Assembly: GCF_963678975.1 (NCBI RefSeq)
Contig: NC_089279.1
Location: 27,328,004 to 27,392,003 of the forward strand
From: Dysidea avara
Lineage: Eukaryota > Porifera > Demospongiae > Dictyoceratida > Dysideidae
DNA length: 64,000 bases
Reading direction: 5' to 3'
The number at the start of each line of letters is the position of its first letter. Position 1 is the stretch's first letter. Under the pieces are notes generated by a model. That model was given only the letters and a program-made list of their open reading frames with translations. It made no database searches and was not told where the DNA came from. A program made the translations under genes and the position numbers. Positions 10,868 through 50,000 of this stretch are shown in pieces.

Positions 10868-13296
10868 TCAAATACTTTGTGAAAGCAGTTCAAGTAAGGC
10901 AACATCACCCTCAGATCCAAAGCTTTGCTTTTCTTCAATCTTCATGATGTCTTTTGTTAAAGCCTTCACTTGACCATGAAAGAGCAGAAGCTTTGCCATC
11001 CTTTGGGAAGAGCATAGTTTGGATTTTTCTACATAAAATTCTAGTAATTTCAAGCCAGCATCTTGTGCATGTTCAGTCTCCTTCTGTCCACTTGCAGTCA
11101 AGTTCTGTATGACTAATATATATAAAAGGAAAAAGTAAATGTAAAACATGATAAGATTGACATAACTACTAATTCACAATTCGTGACTAAGTGTTATCGA
11201 TTATACATACATACATACTTACTTGGGTTCATCAAGGTGATCAACTTGAGACATGATAGTTCAGTTTCATCTAACCGAATTTCCTGCATTGTGGATGTAC
11301 TTTCCTTGATCACATTTTGTATGGAGGAGACCACCACTGGGTCATCGGTGAGGTATAAGTGTGTTGATTCATCACTCTTGAAAGCACCATCTGGAAACTT
11401 GATGATAGGATGAACAAGTTTTAATGTGTTTACTTCACTCCATGATTTCTTGATCAGTTTAATCTGATCATCAACAGGTAATTGGGTAAACATCGGTAAC
11501 TTCTTTGCCCAGGATATCACACTCAACAGTGATCTCTTTTTGCTATCTGGCAATTTCCTATCTGATCTAGCTAATGGACTGGGCAGAACCATGCTGTTCT
11601 CTGCTTCATCTGCTTTTCTAAGTATCTCTAACATCGCAGAAGTTGATATAGCCTGGTCTTTGGCATCATTGTTGAATGAAGTATTGACCATGTTAACAGG
11701 TGTGGAACCAAATGAATAGAATGGAAAGGGAATACTGGTACCCATGGCACCAAAATTTCTTGCAATTGTTGGACTGTGTTGTACTGATCCAGTAGTACTC
11801 TTGGTACATCTAGTCGACAACTTTCGCTCTTTAATTGGATATGGTGTTCTTTCTTCTTGAACATCTGTTGGAAGGAATAATATACATATAAACACAGGAA
11901 ATTGAGATACAGTACAATTGGTATCATATCCATAAATATCATTTGGTGACAATATACAGAACTAGCTGAAATGGTAATACTTGCTACCTAGCTAGCCAGA
12001 ATGTGCAAGCATTATCAAAGTTATTTGCAAATTAAAGCAGAAACTATATATTAATACTAAGAAATTTGACAGTTTTAAACAATGGTGCATTTTCTACCAT
12101 TTAAAGTTTTTGCCTTATTTTTTACAGATTTCAGTACCAGTAAATCTCTTATTCAGGGTTGTGAACTCAGCAAATCATGAGATTCTTTGATTTTGAATGG
12201 CCCACTTGTGACAAAACCTGCTTGTAGACCTGTGTTAAATATGCCAGCATAATAGGTGATATTTTATATTATGGAACTTAATTCCATGACGGTACTCTTT
12301 AATAGAGCAGTCAGTGGAAACTACAAACTACAATAGAGACTCAAATGCATTGTACATAGCTCTTAGATCAATACTCTCTATCAGAATAGTCGCTTTGTAG
12401 ACTCACACAGAAATGGAAATACGCAATAATATATTAAGCAAACACATGTATTTACCAGTTATAAAACTGGTTTTGTCAGACTCAGTCACATTTATGCATT
12501 TAAAAAGTCTTCTGCTAAGGAAGCTTTCGACTGCTCTATAAGAGTATTAATTTTTTATATAAAATTTTCTTCCCAGTGGAAATAATTTAAGGGTTTCAGC
12601 CTCCGGTCCCTTGGCCTGCAGAATGAAGGTGAATATTTTTTTCATTGCTATGACCTTATTGCACCTTCTTATCTTTCTGTAAAATACTTGTTATATGTAG
12701 CTAGGTCACTGAAGTCATGTGATTACTCTTTCACATGCACAGCACTACAAGCTTCACTTACCATTCTTTCTCATTCCTACATCAACACATTGTTGAAGAC
12801 GACAGTGCTGACATCTGTTTCTTGTGTTCTTATTAATTTCACAACATTTGTTGCCTCTACACACATACTTTGCTTCTGCTCGAATACTTCTTCTGAAGAA
12901 ACTCTTACATGCCTCACAGCTCATCACCCCAAAATGCGTTCCTGAGGCAGTATCGTTGCATACCCTACAAACCTGCAGATCTGCAGATTTTGGAGGGGAG
13001 TTAGCTCGGGAATCAGAGTTCTGGATTAAAGACCAAGATGGCAATGCTGGCTGCTGATTAGTGTCAACACGGCTGTTCTCATATCCAGAAATGGAGATGT
13101 CTTGGTTCATACATTGGTCGCTGAAATCAAACCCAACGTTTGGAAAATCAGTCAGCATCCAGTCACCACAAGCCGGCTGATCGTCAAAGCAACCAGTGTT
13201 ATCACCCCGCTGGGACCATTCGCATGTCTCTTTGTCATACGTAAATATATTGTTAGAGCTAGCTGATAAACAGAAATCGGCAGACCTGGAATTCAT
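10868..13296 (-). CDS. Nuclear receptor, NR2 (RXR/HNF4)-like, paralog 1
   Basis: A ligand-type nuclear transcription factor of 473 aa in three exons: 12,762-13,296, 11,223-11,864 and 10,868-11,112, all with GT/AG junctions and matching phases. The DNA-binding domain has eight zinc cysteines at C110/113/127/130 and C146/152/162/165. The P-box helix is [11 protein letters not shown], and the end GMRKNDVQEER matches the RXR/HNF4 T-box. The ligand-domain signature WAKKLPMF...LPVDDQ..LIK..W lies at about 297-320. The final helix ALLELL (E467) fits the AF-2 consensus seen as FLMEML in RXR. The N-terminus of 109 residues is Asn/Ser-rich and unlike known domains. The start is the first Met, about 43 bp below a TATA-like site. 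The gene lies 0.8 kb downstream of the COPS3-B pseudogene on the same strand. Ligand and targets cannot be told from sequence. Confidence 0.93.
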
Positions 13297-35944: not shown

Positions 35945-38900
35945 TTAAATATTTTGTGAAATTAGTTTAAGTATGGCAGCATCACCCTCAGATTCCAAAA
36001 TTTGATTATCGTAAGTGATCACAGCAATGTCTTTTGTTATACCCTTCACTTGGCCATGAAAGAGTAGAAGCTTAGTCATCCTTTGGGAAGGGCGCAGTTT
36101 GGATTTTTGCACATGAGTTTCTAGTAATTTCAAGCCAGTATCTTGTGCATGTTCAATCTCCTTCTGTCCACTTTCAGTTAGGTTGCGTATGACTAAAAGG
36201 AAACAGAAATAATTAAGAATGTGATGGCTAAAATTGACATCACCAATTCACAACTTGTCAGTAGTGTTATCAGTTATGCGTACTCACTTGGATTCATCAA
36301 GGTGATCAACTTAAGACATGACAGTTCAGTTTCATCTAACCGAATTTCCTGCATCGTGAATGTACTTTCCTTGATCAGTTTTTGTACGGAGGAGGCCACC
36401 ACTGGGTTATCAGTAAGGTATAAGTGTGTTGATTCATCATTCTTGAAAGCACCATTACTCCCAGTTGGAAACTTGATGATACGATGAACAAGTTTCAAAG
36501 TGTTCACTTCACTCCATGATTCCTTGATCAGTTTAATCTGATCATCAACAGGTAATTGGGTGAATATTGGTATCTTCTTTGCCCAGGATATTACACTCAG
36601 CAGTGATCTTGTGCTTTCTGGAAATTTTCTGTGTGATTCAGTTGTTGGACTGTTCAGGATTGCACTAATCTCTGCTTTATCTGCCTTTTTAAGCATCTCT
36701 AACAGTGTAGCCTGGTCTTTAGCATCATCGTTGAATGAAACGTTGACTGGCATGGGACCTAAGGAATGAAACGGAAAGGGAATACTGGTACTAAATTTTC
36801 TTGGAATTGTTGGACTTTGTTGCAATGAACCAGTACTCTTGGTACGTCTAGTTGACAACTTGTGCTCTTTGATTGGATACGGTGTTCTTTCTTCTTGAAC
36901 AGCTGTTTGAAAGAATGGTACATGTACAATAAACGCTGGAAATTGAGATACAACTATCTATGCTAAATATACAAACACCATTTTAATTTTGGTGACAATG
37001 TTAGCTACAGAAATATTAATAAACCAAAACAGTTACTAGTTAATGCATAAATGTCTTAAGTGATTTGCAAAGTAGGAAAACTAGATTAAGCCTAATGCAA
37101 TAGACACCGAGTCTCAAGCAATGGTGTATCTTCTGCAATAAATTCAAAAGTGTTCTTTCCAGATTTCAGTGCAGGAAACATCTTGAATCTTCACTCACCC
37201 ACGCAGGGTTATAGCTACAAACTTAAACAAATCATGAAAGTATTTGATTCTGAATGACTCACTTGTAATGAAGCCTCCTTCCCCCCTCCCCTGTCTGGCT
37301 ATAAGCTGGACCCATTGTTACACATTGCAACCAGCGTTGAAACCGGGTCGGGTCATCCGGGTCACATTTTCTCCGGGTCATCCGGGTCTGACCCGGTTTA
37401 CAATTTATCCGGGTCTGACCCGGATTGGATCACGTGAGAAACGAAATTGTTCGTTTGACGACGTGGAACTTATAAACGCTATCGCGTAGCTCTTTCGTGA
37501 GCCACGCCCACTTATCGCATTACCAACATATGCTCAGCTACGCCTATTTGTTAGTAAGTGCAGCATGTAGCACGAAACTGAGGGTATATATGGTGAGGGG
37601 TAGCTATTGTCAGTAGGTGAAGACTTTTTTTTTTTTTTGGTCTTCAACCTACAGCTAGGCTGAAGTTGCAATATTTACTCAACACGAATCGAACGCTCAA
37701 AATGTAGACTCGTTCGCTCACCCGAGACCAGCCGAAACACGTCTCGGCTTTAATTAATCCGGGTCAGTGGGTCATCCGGGTCAGCAGTAGTGACCCGGTT
37801 TCAACGTTGATTGCAACCAATTGTGTCCTTGTTCACTAATGTGAACTGGCAGAAGCACCGAGATTGATAGATTTAATCTCTAAGAGGAGAGTAAAGCAAA
37901 GAGGAGTAGGCTGTGAAGCAAACTCACTAAAGACCAGTGGCTTGATGTAGCGATATAATTTAATGTGTTATATATGTCATAAAAGAGGTTGTGGGTAGTA
38001 TTGTGAATTCTAATCACACTGATGATCTGAAGTATTTAGCATGTGGTTGATATTTGGTATTTTGTATGATCCCTCATTCTATACTGTGCAGAGCATTAAA
38101 ATGTGAAAGGGACCACTGACATGGGTGGCCCTCTGGAGAAGATAGTGGAAATAGGAAGTTTGTAGGACATTGTTACAGTGAGGTATGCTACAAGTTCAGG
38201 GCTAACTATCGGAGCTTGGTGCATGCCTCTGATTAATTAAACCGGGTCACATCCAGATTGCTTTTTGGATCAGTAGGTCAGCAGTACTGACCCACTTACA
38301 ACCCTGTCATAATGTCATTACTCACAGCATGCATGTCAATATATTGAATCACAATTCACACTCAAAAAGAATAGGACTGTACATCATGATCTCATAAAAT
38401 CAAAGGGCTTTTACAAATTAAAACTTTGGTGAGGAAAGGTATTAGAACTTGAAGAAATTCTGATGAACTCTAAATGGTTTCATGTGGGCAGTTAACAAGT
38501 TATATGAAAGCCCTTTCACGTCACTTAATCATTGTAAAAGTCCTATTACAGTGGTCCCTCCATTATTCAAACTCATTGGGCCTTAAGAGTGTTTGGATAA
38601 TGACAAATGAAGCTCATACATTTATATACAGAGCTCAGTTAAACTACCCTAATAGAACATACACATTAGGCAAAATACTCTAATAGAACAGTCACTTTCA
38701 CAGTTCGGATAATGATGATCAATGGCAGGATAATCAAGGAACCACTGCATGTCTCAGCCTGTTAGCTATACCTTAAAAATAATCTTCAAAACAACCATCA
38801 TAATATGACTACTGAAAGAATAGTTACATTTGCATTACAAATAGTTTCAACTTTGCTATACCTGAACTGACAATGACCTCTCTGATTTTTACCTACAACA

Positions 38901-39698
38901 AATAATGCAACAAATTACACAATTATCTAGTCAGGATTTTTCATAGTTGCGGACCCCCCAATTTTCTTTCTTGGCTTTCTGCCTGGTTTTGCCTGCATGA
39001 AATGAATAACAATTGCTATGACCTTGTTACATCTTGTCTTTTCAGTAAAGGCATTCCTTCTGTAAAATACTCACGTATACACAGATGCGTGATTACTATT
39101 ACACATCCATGCGACATAGTCACTACAGTGACTACAAGCTTCACTTACCACCCTTTTTCATTCCCACATCAATGCATTTCTGCATGCGACAGTGCTGACA
39201 TTTGTTTCTTGAGTTTTTATCAATTTCACAGCATTTGTTGCCTTTACACACATACTTTGCTTCTGCTCGAATACTTCTTCTGAAGAAACTCTTACATGCC
39301 TCACAGCTCATTATACCAAAGTGCATTCCAGAGGCAGTATCATTGCACACTCTGCATACCTGCTGAACTGAATTGGATGCAGATTTTGGTGGAGAATGAG
39401 AGTTCTGGATAGAAGACCAAGATGGCAATGCCGGCTGCTGATTAGTGTCAACGTGGCTGTTCTCATATCCAGAAATGGAACTAATTCCTTGGTTCATGTA
39501 TCGGTCGCTGCAATTAAACCCAACGTGTGGTAAATCAGCTAGCATCATCCAATCACTGAAAGGTTGGTCCTCGGGTTGGTCGTCACAGCAGCCAGTGGGA
39601 AAGGAGTTTCCATCACCCCACAGAGGCCATTCGTATGCTTCTTTGTTATACGTGAATATATTGTTAGAACTAAAGAAATCGGCCGACCTGGAGTTCAT
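35945..39698 (-). CDS. Nuclear receptor, NR2 (RXR/HNF4)-like, paralog 2
   Basis: A 470-aa receptor in three exons: 39,149-39,698, 36,288-36,902 and 35,945-36,192, with the same intron positions and phases as paralog 1. Zinc cysteines are C115/118/132/135 and C151/157/167/170. The P-box helix [11 protein letters not shown] is identical to paralog 1, and the T-box reads GMKKGAVQEER, closer still to RXR. The ligand domain keeps WAKKIPIF...LPVDDQ..LIK..W and the helix-3 lysine. The last helix reads AILKLI: K464 stands where paralog 1 and most receptors have the AF-2 glutamate. This predicts weakened or changed coactivator binding. Intron 1 is larger than in paralog 1 (2,246 against 897 bp), partly from a hAT element at 37,332. 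The gene lies 1.3 kb downstream of functional COPS3, on the same strand. Confidence 0.93.
37332..37809. mobile_element. hAT-type MITE, CAGCGTTGAAACCGGG ends, 8-bp TSD attgcaac
   Basis: CAGCGTTGAAACCGGGTC and gacccggtttcaacgttg are inverted ends, with tandem tccgggtc words next to each. attgcaac flanks both sides exactly (37,324-37,331 and 37,810-37,817). In intron 1 of receptor paralog 2 and absent from paralog 1. A decayed relative with accgggtcaca and tcagcagtactgaccc lies at about 38,239-38,305. Confidence 0.9.
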
Positions 39699-41003: not shown

Positions 41004-44000
41004 TCACATTAATCCTTCATCTGTATAGAAGGAGTCATCTTCATATGTACTGCTTCCTCCAAGCATCTGTAGTTGCACATCATAGACAACATACAGACTG
41101 AACAATGTCACATACTCTTTGTATGAACTTCTGATCCACTGCTATTTGTTGATCAAATGATGCCAGCTTCTTCTCAATCTCAATACATTTTCTCATCTGA
41201 GTGGAACAAAATCACACATAACGCAATACTGCTATATGCCACTAGAAGTTCTGGGGGTATGGAATTTTGTTATTTTGTATAGTTATTCTAAATACACAGA
41301 CATTCAAGACATTCACAGACATTCATATTTTCTACAAAAGTTTTAGCTGTCATTGCCCATAAAGCATGACATAGTGCGCATAATCATTCAGTATGATAGT
41401 ACTGTATGGTAGCTTAGGGATCGCATTTCTCACCAAAAAACCAGCCTCACCTTCCTCTGTAATGATGTGGCTGTACTGACTAAGTATAATCACACCCAGA
41501 CGTGCCCTCAGTGTAATCTGCTCAATGAATTACTGTGGGACTTCAGATTTTATTTAAACCAAAGTGTCATTTAGACTATAGGCCTTTTCACACTACAGTC
41601 GAATGCGCTGTACAGTCTCCAGATATCTCACACAAAACATGGCTATTGTGCCAAGACTAAAGCGATGGCATACCTAGTGTTATACTCGGCTTGTGGAAGC
41701 GATACGGTAACCATGAGTAAGTGCCAATGGAGGATAGCATACCATTCTGAAATCATCTTGCCCAGTACAGGCATCCTCCTAAGAACTAACCAGCTTCTTG
41801 GCACCCAACATTTTGTAAGTGTACTAACAACATTCCTCGCTGTGAATACTCAAGGAATACAAAGAAGGTATAGTACAATGACCAACGCCATTTAAAGTTT
41901 CATTACATAATCGAGTAATTAATTCATGTGCTATGAAAGCAAATTGAATTTAGTTGCTGCACACGTAGTGTGAAATGGATTGATGCGTATTCGATCCACT
42001 CTCAGTCTGACCACAGCTGGATCTGCATTCAATGCACATTATGCATGAAAAGGCCTTATAACTAGCTGACTGATACCTTCAGCCACACCTAACTCAATTA
42101 CAAGTAAGATTGATTTTGACATCACTTAGAGCTTCTATTTCAGTAATCTAGTGTCACAAAATGGTATGGCAGTCAATGAGGGAGATTGTACAAGATTCTT
42201 TCATTCCTTCAACCAGTGGAGTAATGCCTTCTGTGGACTAATGCATGAATGTATATTACTATCATGGCAATGCGTTTTCCTGCTATCATACATAGCTCAG
42301 TATAAAGCACTGTTCAGTCACTATAATAGTTCTCTAATTAATTGTCATTCTCACATCATGCTTCAGTACACAAGGTGTGGTTATTGTGTAAAAGCAATTC
42401 TCTGACTGTTCTTAAACCTGCTATAATTATCACAATAAATTTGCATGACTACAACACAGTAGTACTACACAAAATGGTACATATGTAAAACGGCTATTTA
42501 ATTCTATTCTTACTTCTTCATCAATATAATCTGCCATCAGCGGCCCATTGTATTTCTCCGGGTTGTCATGGAAAGATACCATCCCATTGCTATGGTCAAT
42601 GGTTGCAAAAATTTCTTTACTCTCAATCTTTGTAATAAAGAGAACAGAGATAGTAAAAATCATACAAAGATTTCTTACCATCTCTAGTGTGTACTTTTCT
42701 GCCTGTCGGACATCTTGTAATTTTAACCTGCTAGTCATATCTGACAATGATAGTGTTAAAAATGTCTAAAGGAAGGAAGTAATTGAACTCCAATTGTACT
42801 TGACATCTGATACATACCTTAGTGAGCTTCTGAACATTTCTATGGTATAATGAGGCCAATACACGCTTTGCCAATCCTAAATTGTTATCCTACATTTTGT
42901 AATCATCATAAACCACAAAATTTTAAAATACTACTCTTACCCTAGTTAGTGGTTCGGCATATTTATCAATCACTGCAGTTACTTTGCTCACTTCATAACT
43001 TGAGTAGACTTTAGCAATTTCATTGTACATCCCACACAGAGGCTAAACAGTGAACACATACTGTAAGCAATGCCTGGAAAGGGTAATTTTGTGCTTAACA
43101 TTGCTGCGTTTACTATTACAGAAAACATTAAAAATTCTGCTATTAGAAATTTTCACATACATAACAAATTGTATACCTTTACATATCTATCAACCACATG
43201 GGAGGTGTATTTAGGAAGTGCAGAAACCTATGGTAAATTGCATGTATAACTTGCAATTGTTATACTGTTACATACCTTTCCTTGCTTCAGCAGCGACACT
43301 AAAACATATTTCTTGTAAGCTTCTAGCATAATGGCACTTATGGCTGATGCAGGAGTAGAAAGACACTATGGTAGATGAATAGCAACACAGAGTTTAAGTG
43401 AAAGACAGCTTTTTAGCCAATCCACACACATTAGACTGATATAATAAAATTCTTTGTTCCCTATCACCTTAAAGGCAGGTATTGAGGGCAGGCAATTATT
43501 CTTACTGAAATTTCATTGTTTCCCCGTCACCTGCCCGTATATCACTTAGCCCTACTGCATTGGAAATTATTTAGAAATATAAATTTTAGAAATACTATGT
43601 TCAAGATCAAAATACTCTAATAGAGCAGTCAGCCACTCTAATATAATACTCGGTTATTCTGCTACTGCAATCAAAACTACGTATGTTTATATGTACTACG
43701 TATGTAATGGGAGGCACTATCAGGATTTAAACTCCTCCAAAGAGTATTTTACTCTGTTATTCTAATTTATTGGAAAGTATCTCGTTGTCGCCTAAGTAGT
43801 TTGCACCGTCCATTGTAGCTAGTCTATTGTTTGAAACTGGTTGGTGGACAGTGTATTGTCATTTTGAAATTTGGCATCCTGGCAAGGCACAAAGAAGCAT
43901 AACAGCTCTGTTTCAATTCCTTTTCAGCCACATATCCTTATAGAGATAGCCTGGGCTGTGTCTGGTTGTGTTAACATGGAGTGTAGTCTGGTGTACTGAA

Positions 44001-47000: not shown

Positions 47001-50000
47001 GTTTGCACAAGCATGCATATTGAGAAAAACAATTTTTTTTTAAAATGTTGAAATTACATGTATTACAAAGAAAATTTACCCAAGTTTTAATCGAGCCATT
47101 ACTCAGGAAAGGAAGTGTTAAACCGATTAAACCTATATACCATCTTATTCACCTATTCAAGGGGAGTTCGAAAATCTTTGTTTCATTTCTGTAGCCCCAA
47201 TGGTTTGCGTGTCACGTGCGTTTGTTTACGATGTGGTAGACATAAACAAAATCGTTGCTGTTTATTCAATAAAACCACCTTCATACGCCTATGCGCAAGT
47301 GACTGCAGGACTAAAACTATACCTTGGCTGATCTGCCAATCCATGGTGAACACTGTAAGCCAAACCTCAACTTTGTAGACTAATCTAAATGAAGTTATGG
47401 GTGCTAATGTAACTCCTGTAGTATATTTTTAGTATAGTCACTGTACAAATCAATTTCCTTGCTTTTCCTACTTTCTAGCGCTGTAATTCCAAAACTACTC
47501 ACCATAATCAACTGAAATTTTGGTGAGCCATTCCTTGGACTATGTAGATAATGCTGAGAAAATAAAAGAAATTTGGAAGTTGTGCAAACTAGATGGTTTT
47601 TGCTGAGATAGTCACAAATGTTCCACAACTCAATGACGGTTGCTCCTATCAACTTGCAACAAGTTCTGTTCGTTTCGCCATAAAATTTTCTATAAGGCCA
47701 TATATGGCTCACGTGAATAAACCCACAACCAAAATTAAAGACATGGCAAGAATTTTGAAACACGAAGACGCAACTCGATGTTGTTCATCGCTTCATAACA
47801 AATAGGCCGATGTAGTTACAGTGTTCATTTATCTTCTCCAAGTAACCCAGTGAACAGACTTTTGAACAATGTGTTGTTTTAGGTTATAAGAATTAACAGG
47901 AATTAAGTTATCCCACCTAACGTTGCCATGCATGCCCAAACACGCATTCCCCAAAAGTTCTTTGCGGGTTTAAGGATTAATATGTACATGTATATTTGAC
48001 AGCAGCTTACCTGTACTAGGTCAGCATGAAGGCTGGTCAACTTGGTGGGAGCAGTTCGGTACTTGTCAATGGCCATTTTCAGCACATTGATGGCACACAA
48101 TGCTTTACCCTGCTTTACTGCAACCTTGGTGAACTGATGGTATAAACTGGCAACTAAACAAAACAAACAGAAAAAACTATGAAAATCCTTACAGCCAGGT
48201 GAGGACCTGGAGTTTTAAGATACACATACATTGCGTATGTAATAGACACTCCATTTTGGGACCAAGACTGACGCGTAAAAGTGTATGATGAGGTGATTTT
48301 CGTGATTGCTGCATTCTTAAAAGGTCAGCACTTCTGTATTGCCATGCACAAATTAAAATTGCAGGACTTCTAAACATCACAAACTGGAGGTTAGACATGG
48401 CAAAACTCAGCTTTAAGGAAACTCCTGCACAGAACAAACGGTACCTAAATGACATTATACCCTAGTCAATCTATGTTACAACTAATCAAAATTACCAATT
48501 CTAGCACAATGTGAAAGGATCACACTGCTAAATGGTATGTGAATAAACAAGTTAGTTTAAACATTCGGTCAGGTGATGTCTCACCACCCACTCTATCAAC
48601 AAATACGCAGAAGTCATCCCATAACAGGAAACTTAATAAATGATCCAAAAGTCAGAATTTGCCTGTTCATGTTGTTTCCATGCTCGCCAACCAAAATATG
48701 CTGTAACAAAATTTTTGACCATCAGCTAGATCACTACAACTCTTGTTACTTACTATCTATGTACATAGTCCATGTTTGATACAGTGTATACCAAGTATCT
48801 ACATATAAACCACCAAGACATCAAGAACAAAGGAACCTAGCTATGATTGGGAGCAATTTATTCCACCGTTAAATGTGCACTGTATGTTGAATTATGCAAG
48901 TAAGCAATTTATGTATGCATTTTACAAAAAAAAAAAAATCAACTGTTGCATTATGGCTTACGTATTGAAAATTTGCATTATGGTACTTTGGCACTCAGAA
49001 ATTTATGTGGTTTGGGTAGAATACATTGGCAGGTTGTTAGATAATCATCCTATAATTGAAACACAAGCATACAAACTCCGTGATATCTCCGTGATATCTC
49101 TAGGAGATGTCCGTTCATCGTAACCGAACGTAACAAGAACGTACTAGCTGCTGACCCATAATCAAAAATTTTAGGTATGCATATATAATATATCCAGTGG
49201 CTGCACTCGTATTGGCTTGGGTGATTGATCGCCCTGCACAGGCTATCAGCCTAATAGCTAAGTGTTACATATTAGCTGTAACACGGGGCATTCGGGCTTT
49301 ACCTGATATGTATGCCCACCTGCCCATGTTACAACTATTACATGTACCATTTTAGCGTGGGCATTCAAAGGTACCGCCCAGGGTTTAACTCGTTTATTTC
49401 CTGGGCATTATCTAGATATTGTAGATATTACCCGGGCAATATCATGAGAATGCGGTTTGCTTATGGCTTTGATGCCCACCAGTTCAAAGATACGAAACGC
49501 TTTGACTTGTTTTATTGAGCAACATGGAGTGTTTTATTGTGGGTTTTAGTTTACACATTATAGGCAAGGCTCAGTCTAGTTGTTAAGTTTAGATTATTTG
49601 ACTGTAATTAAACTATATTCTATGATGAATGATCTGTAAAATGATCGCTTGAGGGATGCGTGGATACGCATTTCTACCCACTACACAGGGGGCATGTCAG
49701 CCATTGAGCAGATCACAAAACAAGAAAAATATGACAACTAGGTGAGTAGCTTATAGTCTTAAGTACTTAACTTTATGTATTAACTTACTTACTGTCACAA
49801 TAGCGAAGGTTTAATGTAGTATTTTAAAAAAACATAGACCCTTTACACCCCAAAAACCGACCCCACAATTGAAAATTCCAGGCGTGTGTTGAAACATAAT
49901 GACGTAGGAATAACGTGCTGAGAGCTATTTGCCCACGCAATCGAAACCACAATCAATCATCAGATGCTAGTGTATAAAACAAATGGGGTGAGCGCTCTGT

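Follow-up and report, generated by a model that had tools for sequence, protein, structure and literature searches.

In the sponge genome examined here, the nuclear receptor gene that we call paralog 2 carries a lysine, Lys464, at the position of the AF-2 glutamate, and it is not alone in departing from that residue. Judged from the sequences, paralog 2 is a nuclear receptor and an intact member of an expanded family whose AF-2 core residue varies readily between copies. We give an even chance to the reading that paralog 2 binds DNA, with a lipid as a possible ligand, but is poor at recruiting LxxLL coactivators and damps the activity of its siblings of the Glu type; the fold, the ligand binding, the loss of coactivators and the competition are what we infer for it.

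The window, that is, the whole stretch of 64,000 nucleotides that was analysed, corresponds to C8:27328004-27392003 of the 551-Mb genome. It contains two nuclear receptor genes, paralog 1 (10868-13296) and paralog 2 (35945-39698), both of which are read from the minus strand. Both could be modelled as three exons with GT/AG splice sites (Table 1), giving 473 residues for paralog 1 and 470 for paralog 2, and exon 3 of paralog 2, read on the minus strand, is preceded by AG and terminated by TAA. The DNA-binding domain profile PF00105 is matched with 101.8 bits by paralog 2 and 99.1 bits by paralog 1 (cut-off 21.1), and the ligand-binding domain profile PF00104 with 51.3 bits by exon 2 of paralog 2 alone and 74.1 bits by the joined domain. 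PF00104 is also matched by all eight family sequences that were submitted (8 of the 14 copies), and profile matching gives USP and RXR as the best relatives of the ligand domain among solved structures. The two paralogs have an identical P-box and share 58 of the 68 residues of the zinc-finger domain. Reading frames that match a PCI domain and subunit 3 of the COP9 signalosome (COP9_hel_rpt) adjoin the receptor genes at 42430-42765 and 47903-48214 of the window, minus strand.

Table 1. Exons and AF-2 codons of the two receptor genes, in positions of the window.
Feature	Position	Strand	Basis
Paralog 2 exon 1: N-terminus and C4 zinc-finger DNA-binding domain, P-box CEACKS	39149..39698	-	zf-C4 101.8 bits; GT site
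Paralog 2 exon 2: hinge and first part of ligand-binding domain (about helices 1-8), with Lys292 (helix 3) and Arg324 (helix 5)	36288..36902	-	Hormone_recep 51.3 bits; splice sites
Paralog 2 exon 3: about helices 9-12, including stop codon	35945..36192	-	splice acceptor, frame, stop
Paralog 2 codon AAA, Lys464, AF-2 glutamate position	35966..35968	-	paralog alignment; RXR-alpha alignment
Paralog 1 exon 1: N-terminus and DNA-binding domain, P-box same as in paralog 2	12762..13296	-	zf-C4 99.1 bits
Paralog 1 exon 2: hinge and first part of ligand domain; clamp Lys299 kept, helix-5 arginine replaced by Pro331	11223..11864	-	Hormone_recep 48.9 bits
Paralog 1 exon 3: about helices 9-12	10868..11112	-	gene model
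Paralog 1 codon GAA, Glu467, AF-2 glutamate	10889..10891	-	gene model

The first-pass annotation of the window had read the end of paralog 2 as AILKLI, with K464 in place of the E467 of paralog 1. The three-exon models lead to the same residue numbers, with the codons AAA and GAA, respectively, and they also bear out the helix-3 lysine that it had described as kept, which is K292 in paralog 2 and K299 in paralog 1. The charge reversal proposed there thus stands, and the receptor that has it is open, its DNA-binding exon intact and its helix-3 lysine in place. The identity of the residue at the AF-2 position is certain, the function of paralog 2 putative. The core glutamate is present in paralog 1 and absent from paralog 2; in the available part of PMC2950128 the AF-2 core is written with any charged residue at this position, a wider pattern that the lysine passes.

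The annotation had named two findings that would overturn its claim. One of them, a sequencing or assembly error at the Lys464 codon, is very improbable, as AAA is found at the same codon in four further copies and the exon of paralog 2 is open and unique in the window. The other, a different glutamate acting as the clamp, has no apparent counterpart in the sequence near the AF-2 core and was rejected: paralog 2 has no acidic residue after the core, and going upstream the first one is an Asp at a distance of five residues, which 12 of the 13 readable copies share irrespective of the residue at their core. In pairwise alignments to the tail of RXR-alpha, the core residue falls opposite the RXR glutamate, which we take to be number 453, in 9 of 13 copies, including paralog 2 (low score, 9.0), while in the remaining four (paralog 1, C, G and H) the alignment shifts along helix 11, which matches poorly. 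In none of the four profile alignments to solved structures that were examined did the match extend to helix 12; it ended in helix 10-11. A structure prediction for exon 3 of paralog 2 only, with paralog 1 as the alignment, was poor (mean pLDDT 62.1, with the helix-12 segment mostly below 50).

The whole genome was searched with exon 3, and the counts are lower bounds. At least 14 copies of this exon were found, all on contig C8, with ten at about 26.94-27.36 Mb and four at 30.22-30.44 Mb; copies beyond paralogs 1 and 2 are given the arbitrary letters C-P. The AF-2 core residue is Lys in five copies (paralog 2, D, F, G and H), Glu in five (paralog 1, its neighbour C, J, K and L), and Ala, Val and Asp in one copy each (M, N and O), while copy P stops before the site, which leaves 13 readable copies. 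Lys464 is therefore present in paralog 2 as annotated, but the description of lysine as a feature of one receptor paralog was too narrow, since 5 of the 14 copies found have it.

In the first array, exons 2 and 3 are open in all ten copies, and nine of them have a full open model; copy F has no DNA-binding exon nearby. Among the five Lys copies, exons 2 and 3 are open in every case and the full model in four. In the second array, three of the four copies are disrupted: M contains a stop in exon 2, and its first exon is incomplete; O loses its frame within exon 2; and exon 3 of P ends at an early stop. A zinc-finger search of the genome gave 18 matches, made up of 14 family exons, three remnants and one insert-bearing gene. 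Three zinc-finger exons are partial or degenerate, and one of these is on contig C13. An isolated DNA-binding exon (C8:27303518), with no ligand domain, is located 20 kb upstream of an isolated ligand domain (27282092-27283004) that lacks a DNA-binding exon; the two may belong to a single gene split by a very long intron.

The variability at the core residue can be compared with its surroundings. Over 184 ligand-domain columns from helix 3 on, each filled in at least 11 copies, the mean number of changes is 1.8; the AF-2 column is one of only 12 with five or more, and the columns directly before and after it (−1 and +1) have no change at all. In the 13 readable copies, positions −2, −1, +1 and +2 are hydrophobic without exception (52 of 52 cells), and all 14 copies have the clamp lysine of helix 3. 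With the hydrophobic neighbours kept and the core residue variable, helix 12 appears to keep the side expected to pack on the domain and to vary where it would face the coactivator.

The history of the residue was examined on an unrooted tree of all exons from which the AF-2 codon was left out. Paralog 2 groups with paralog 1 and C (support 100/100), the latter two being closest to each other (98/98), and this trio joins D, F, G and H (100/99), making seven minus-strand genes. A tree with the Lys copies as a single clade is rejected with the codon left out (p-AU 4e-102 for all exons and 0.0086 for exon 3 alone). The minimum number of changes at the AF-2 residue is two for Lys and Glu alone and five for all states. 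Two gains of Lys, or one gain followed by one return to Glu, cost the same two changes each. The direction of the change may thus be the reverse of the one that the annotation supposed: a single gain of Lys would date from the ancestor of the seven minus-strand genes, Glu would have returned in paralog 1 and its sister, and paralog 2 would have kept the older state. The grouping of paralog 2 with two Glu genes, and of that trio with four Lys genes, fits this scenario, although the tree on which it is read is unrooted, and we give it somewhat less than an even chance. It is important to point out that it concerns descent and is compatible with any of the functional readings.

We now turn our attention to whether the lysine is a selected change, as the annotation had envisaged. 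In the absence of selection, Lys would make up 44% of the single-step replacements from GAA, which makes it the commonest outcome, and the neutral probability that it stays in the clade of D, F, G and H is 0.57. With mutation favouring the lysine and neutral retention likely, its presence says little about selection. Better evidence that these copies still work comes from the conserved face of helix 12 and the open reading frames.

Codon fits were made on one fixed tree with one custom-written substitution model, and the p values are uncorrected. The overall omega of the ligand domain is 0.41. For the Lys lineages, pooled on the presumption that Lys was on the stem of D, F, G and H, it is 0.58 (p 0.003 against 1; p 0.029 against 0.37 for the rest). 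Taken separately, neither the branch of paralog 2 (0.62, p 0.20) nor the inner branches of D, F, G and H (0.61, p 0.071) can be distinguished from 1. The Glu pair of paralog 1 and C has a similar value of 0.67 (p 0.26), which indicates that the raised omega is not special to Lys. In the second array, with Ala, Val and Asp, the value is 0.39 and differs from 1 (p 4.5e-9). On the branch of paralog 2, the DNA-binding domain has an omega of 0.24 (p 0.018 against 1) and is under purifying selection, and the N-terminus with the hinge has 0.49 (p 0.037). In a free fit, an omega of 3.9 was assigned to the short stem leading to the seven-gene clade, a value to which we attach no meaning.

These numbers bear directly on the possibility that constraint was simply relaxed, in which case the clamp residue would have become dispensable after duplication, Lys would be present as the commonest mutation, and paralog 2 would be losing activation without gaining a new role. 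The mutational expectation, the higher omega of the pooled Lys lineages, the occurrence of Ala, Val and Asp in other copies and the three broken copies of the second array are all consistent with this. However, the Lys copies are open to the extent given above, the four positions flanking the core are never polar in 13 copies, and the DNA-binding domain of paralog 2 is under purifying selection. Moreover, the low omega of the second array means that the clamp residue changed there without a freely drifting domain. We therefore consider relaxed constraint rather unlikely, though it deserves to be taken seriously.

A second site of variation concerns the ligand. The position 11 residues after the conserved Trp matches the helix-5 arginine of RXR, which we take to be its ligand arginine, and it is Arg in 6 of the 14 copies, His in seven and Pro in one. 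The helix-5 Arg and the helix-12 Glu are both kept in only 3 of the 13 readable copies (J, K and L). The two paralogs in the window are complementary in this respect, with Pro and Glu in paralog 1, and Arg and Lys in paralog 2. In AqNR1 of Amphimedon, the helix-5 arginine is required for fatty-acid binding and activation, according to the available part of PMC2950128. One can speculate that the arrays uncouple the ligand anchor from the output switch copy by copy, yielding graded lipid sensors, ligand-blind activators and ligand-binding dampeners that would compete for the same DNA sites, but this broader picture is unlikely.

For paralog 2 itself, the mechanism that we propose is as follows. 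Helix 12 would remain a hydrophobic lid, with the clamp residue either reversed from Glu to Lys or never restored to Glu. Lys292 and Lys464 would then lie at both ends of the groove and leave an LxxLL helix without a cap at its N-terminal end, so that coactivators would be poorly recruited and the receptor would activate little alone. DNA binding is expected to be retained, the P-box being identical to that of the Glu-type siblings, and with the helix-5 arginine kept, binding of a lipid acid may persist. The shared P-box and the 58 shared zinc-finger residues make competition at the same sites plausible. Provided that they are co-expressed, paralog 2 would then dampen or buffer its Glu-type siblings at shared sites, and its sequence is compatible with dominant-negative behaviour. 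The annotation had suggested a loss of ligand-dependent activation. By analogy with the E403K mutant of TR-alpha, weakened ligand-dependent coactivator recruitment is the best reading, and Lys464 would cause the same kind of defect; its further idea of a selected change fares less well, as the lysine alone is weak evidence for it.

Another option considered was a switch of partner, in which Lys464 suits a coregulator helix with acidic residues, or a different surface is used, and the receptor still activates. A Glu directly after the basic residue that ends helix 4 is found in all five Lys copies and in one of the five Glu copies, and the four copies of the second array have Thr. The association of this Glu with Lys would fit a new partner, but the tree has just two Lys/Glu changes to support it, and the same Glu occurs in one Glu copy. 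The NR4A receptors provide a precedent, shown for Nurr1, which natively has Lys at this place (IIDKLF in chain 1ovl); chains of Nur77 and HR38 match the same query. The available part of PMC10259986 describes the charge clamp of Nurr1 as reversed and as preventing typical coregulator binding. A reversed clamp needs an acidic residue in helix 3, though, and here that residue is also Lys, in 14 of 14 copies, which makes the clamp doubly positive; a clamp of the NR4A type was therefore rejected in spite of the lysine in helix 12. A switch of partner is in our view improbable, and poor coactivator recruitment is retained as the preferred reading.

As to where the family comes from, its C4 zinc finger and RXR-like ligand domain resemble those of sponge NR1 (AqNR1 of Amphimedon, SpNR1), as does the helix-5 arginine in 6 of the 14 copies, and sponge NR1 is the probable origin. 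In the available part of PMC8092661, an RxxxE motif in helix 7 is reported for SpNR1, lost in one group of paralogs. This motif was not found in the exon 2 alignment, read by eye, where paralog 2 has KLIKE and paralog 1 NVIKE, and the first place is Lys in 8, Asn in 3 and Glu in 3 of the 14 copies; the family is therefore called SpNR1-like only. According to the same part of that source, sponges have two receptors, SpNR1 and SpNR2, the latter HNF4-like and with an insert in its DNA-binding domain, and calcareous sponges have four paralogs of SpNR1; for Amphimedon, two receptors are reported in the text available, one of them NR1. The zinc-finger matches in the present genome, with their one insert-bearing gene, fit a sponge. 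Compared with the published SpNR1 counts in these sources, at least 14 ligand-domain copies on one contig are far more. Among the titles and abstract openings of the sponge receptor literature searched, none describes a large NR1 array, which is no proof of absence in print.

The insert-bearing gene from the zinc-finger search is an HNF4-like receptor (L023, L056:2305-3099 and L057:2228-2575, minus strands), and one of its exons has RIDALLLMSMI near its end. In a weak alignment to HNF4-alpha (E 0.072), Met lies opposite the AF-2 Glu, and in a slightly better, gapped alignment to an RXR-like protein (E 0.026) Ser does, so that the residue is non-acidic in both. Amphimedon NR2 is reported as a strong repressor in the available part of PMC2950128.

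Sponge receptors are used to infer what the first nuclear receptor did. If the proposal for the arrays is true, they represent an early-branching animal's expansion of an RXR-like receptor into at least 14 graded copies. With the clamp residue changed at least five times and the rest of helix 12 hydrophobic, the family offers natural variants in a similar background, and it would allow the passage from an activating to a silent or repressing receptor to be tested in living paralogs, beside disease mutations such as TR-alpha E403K.

Among known systems, inactive repressor nuclear receptors have lost the coactivator motif of helix 12 and kept DNA binding and the fold (available part of PMC2950128); here, unlike in those receptors, helix 12 retains its hydrophobic part and the change is in the charged residue. 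The closest measured case is human TR-alpha E403K, found in resistance to thyroid hormone alpha, where the available part of PMC8852717 gives a predominantly defective coactivator interaction. It is the same change from Glu to Lys at the residue by which helix 12 contacts the coactivator, but there it is a disease mutation in one human receptor, whereas here it is the state of several paralogs in one genome.
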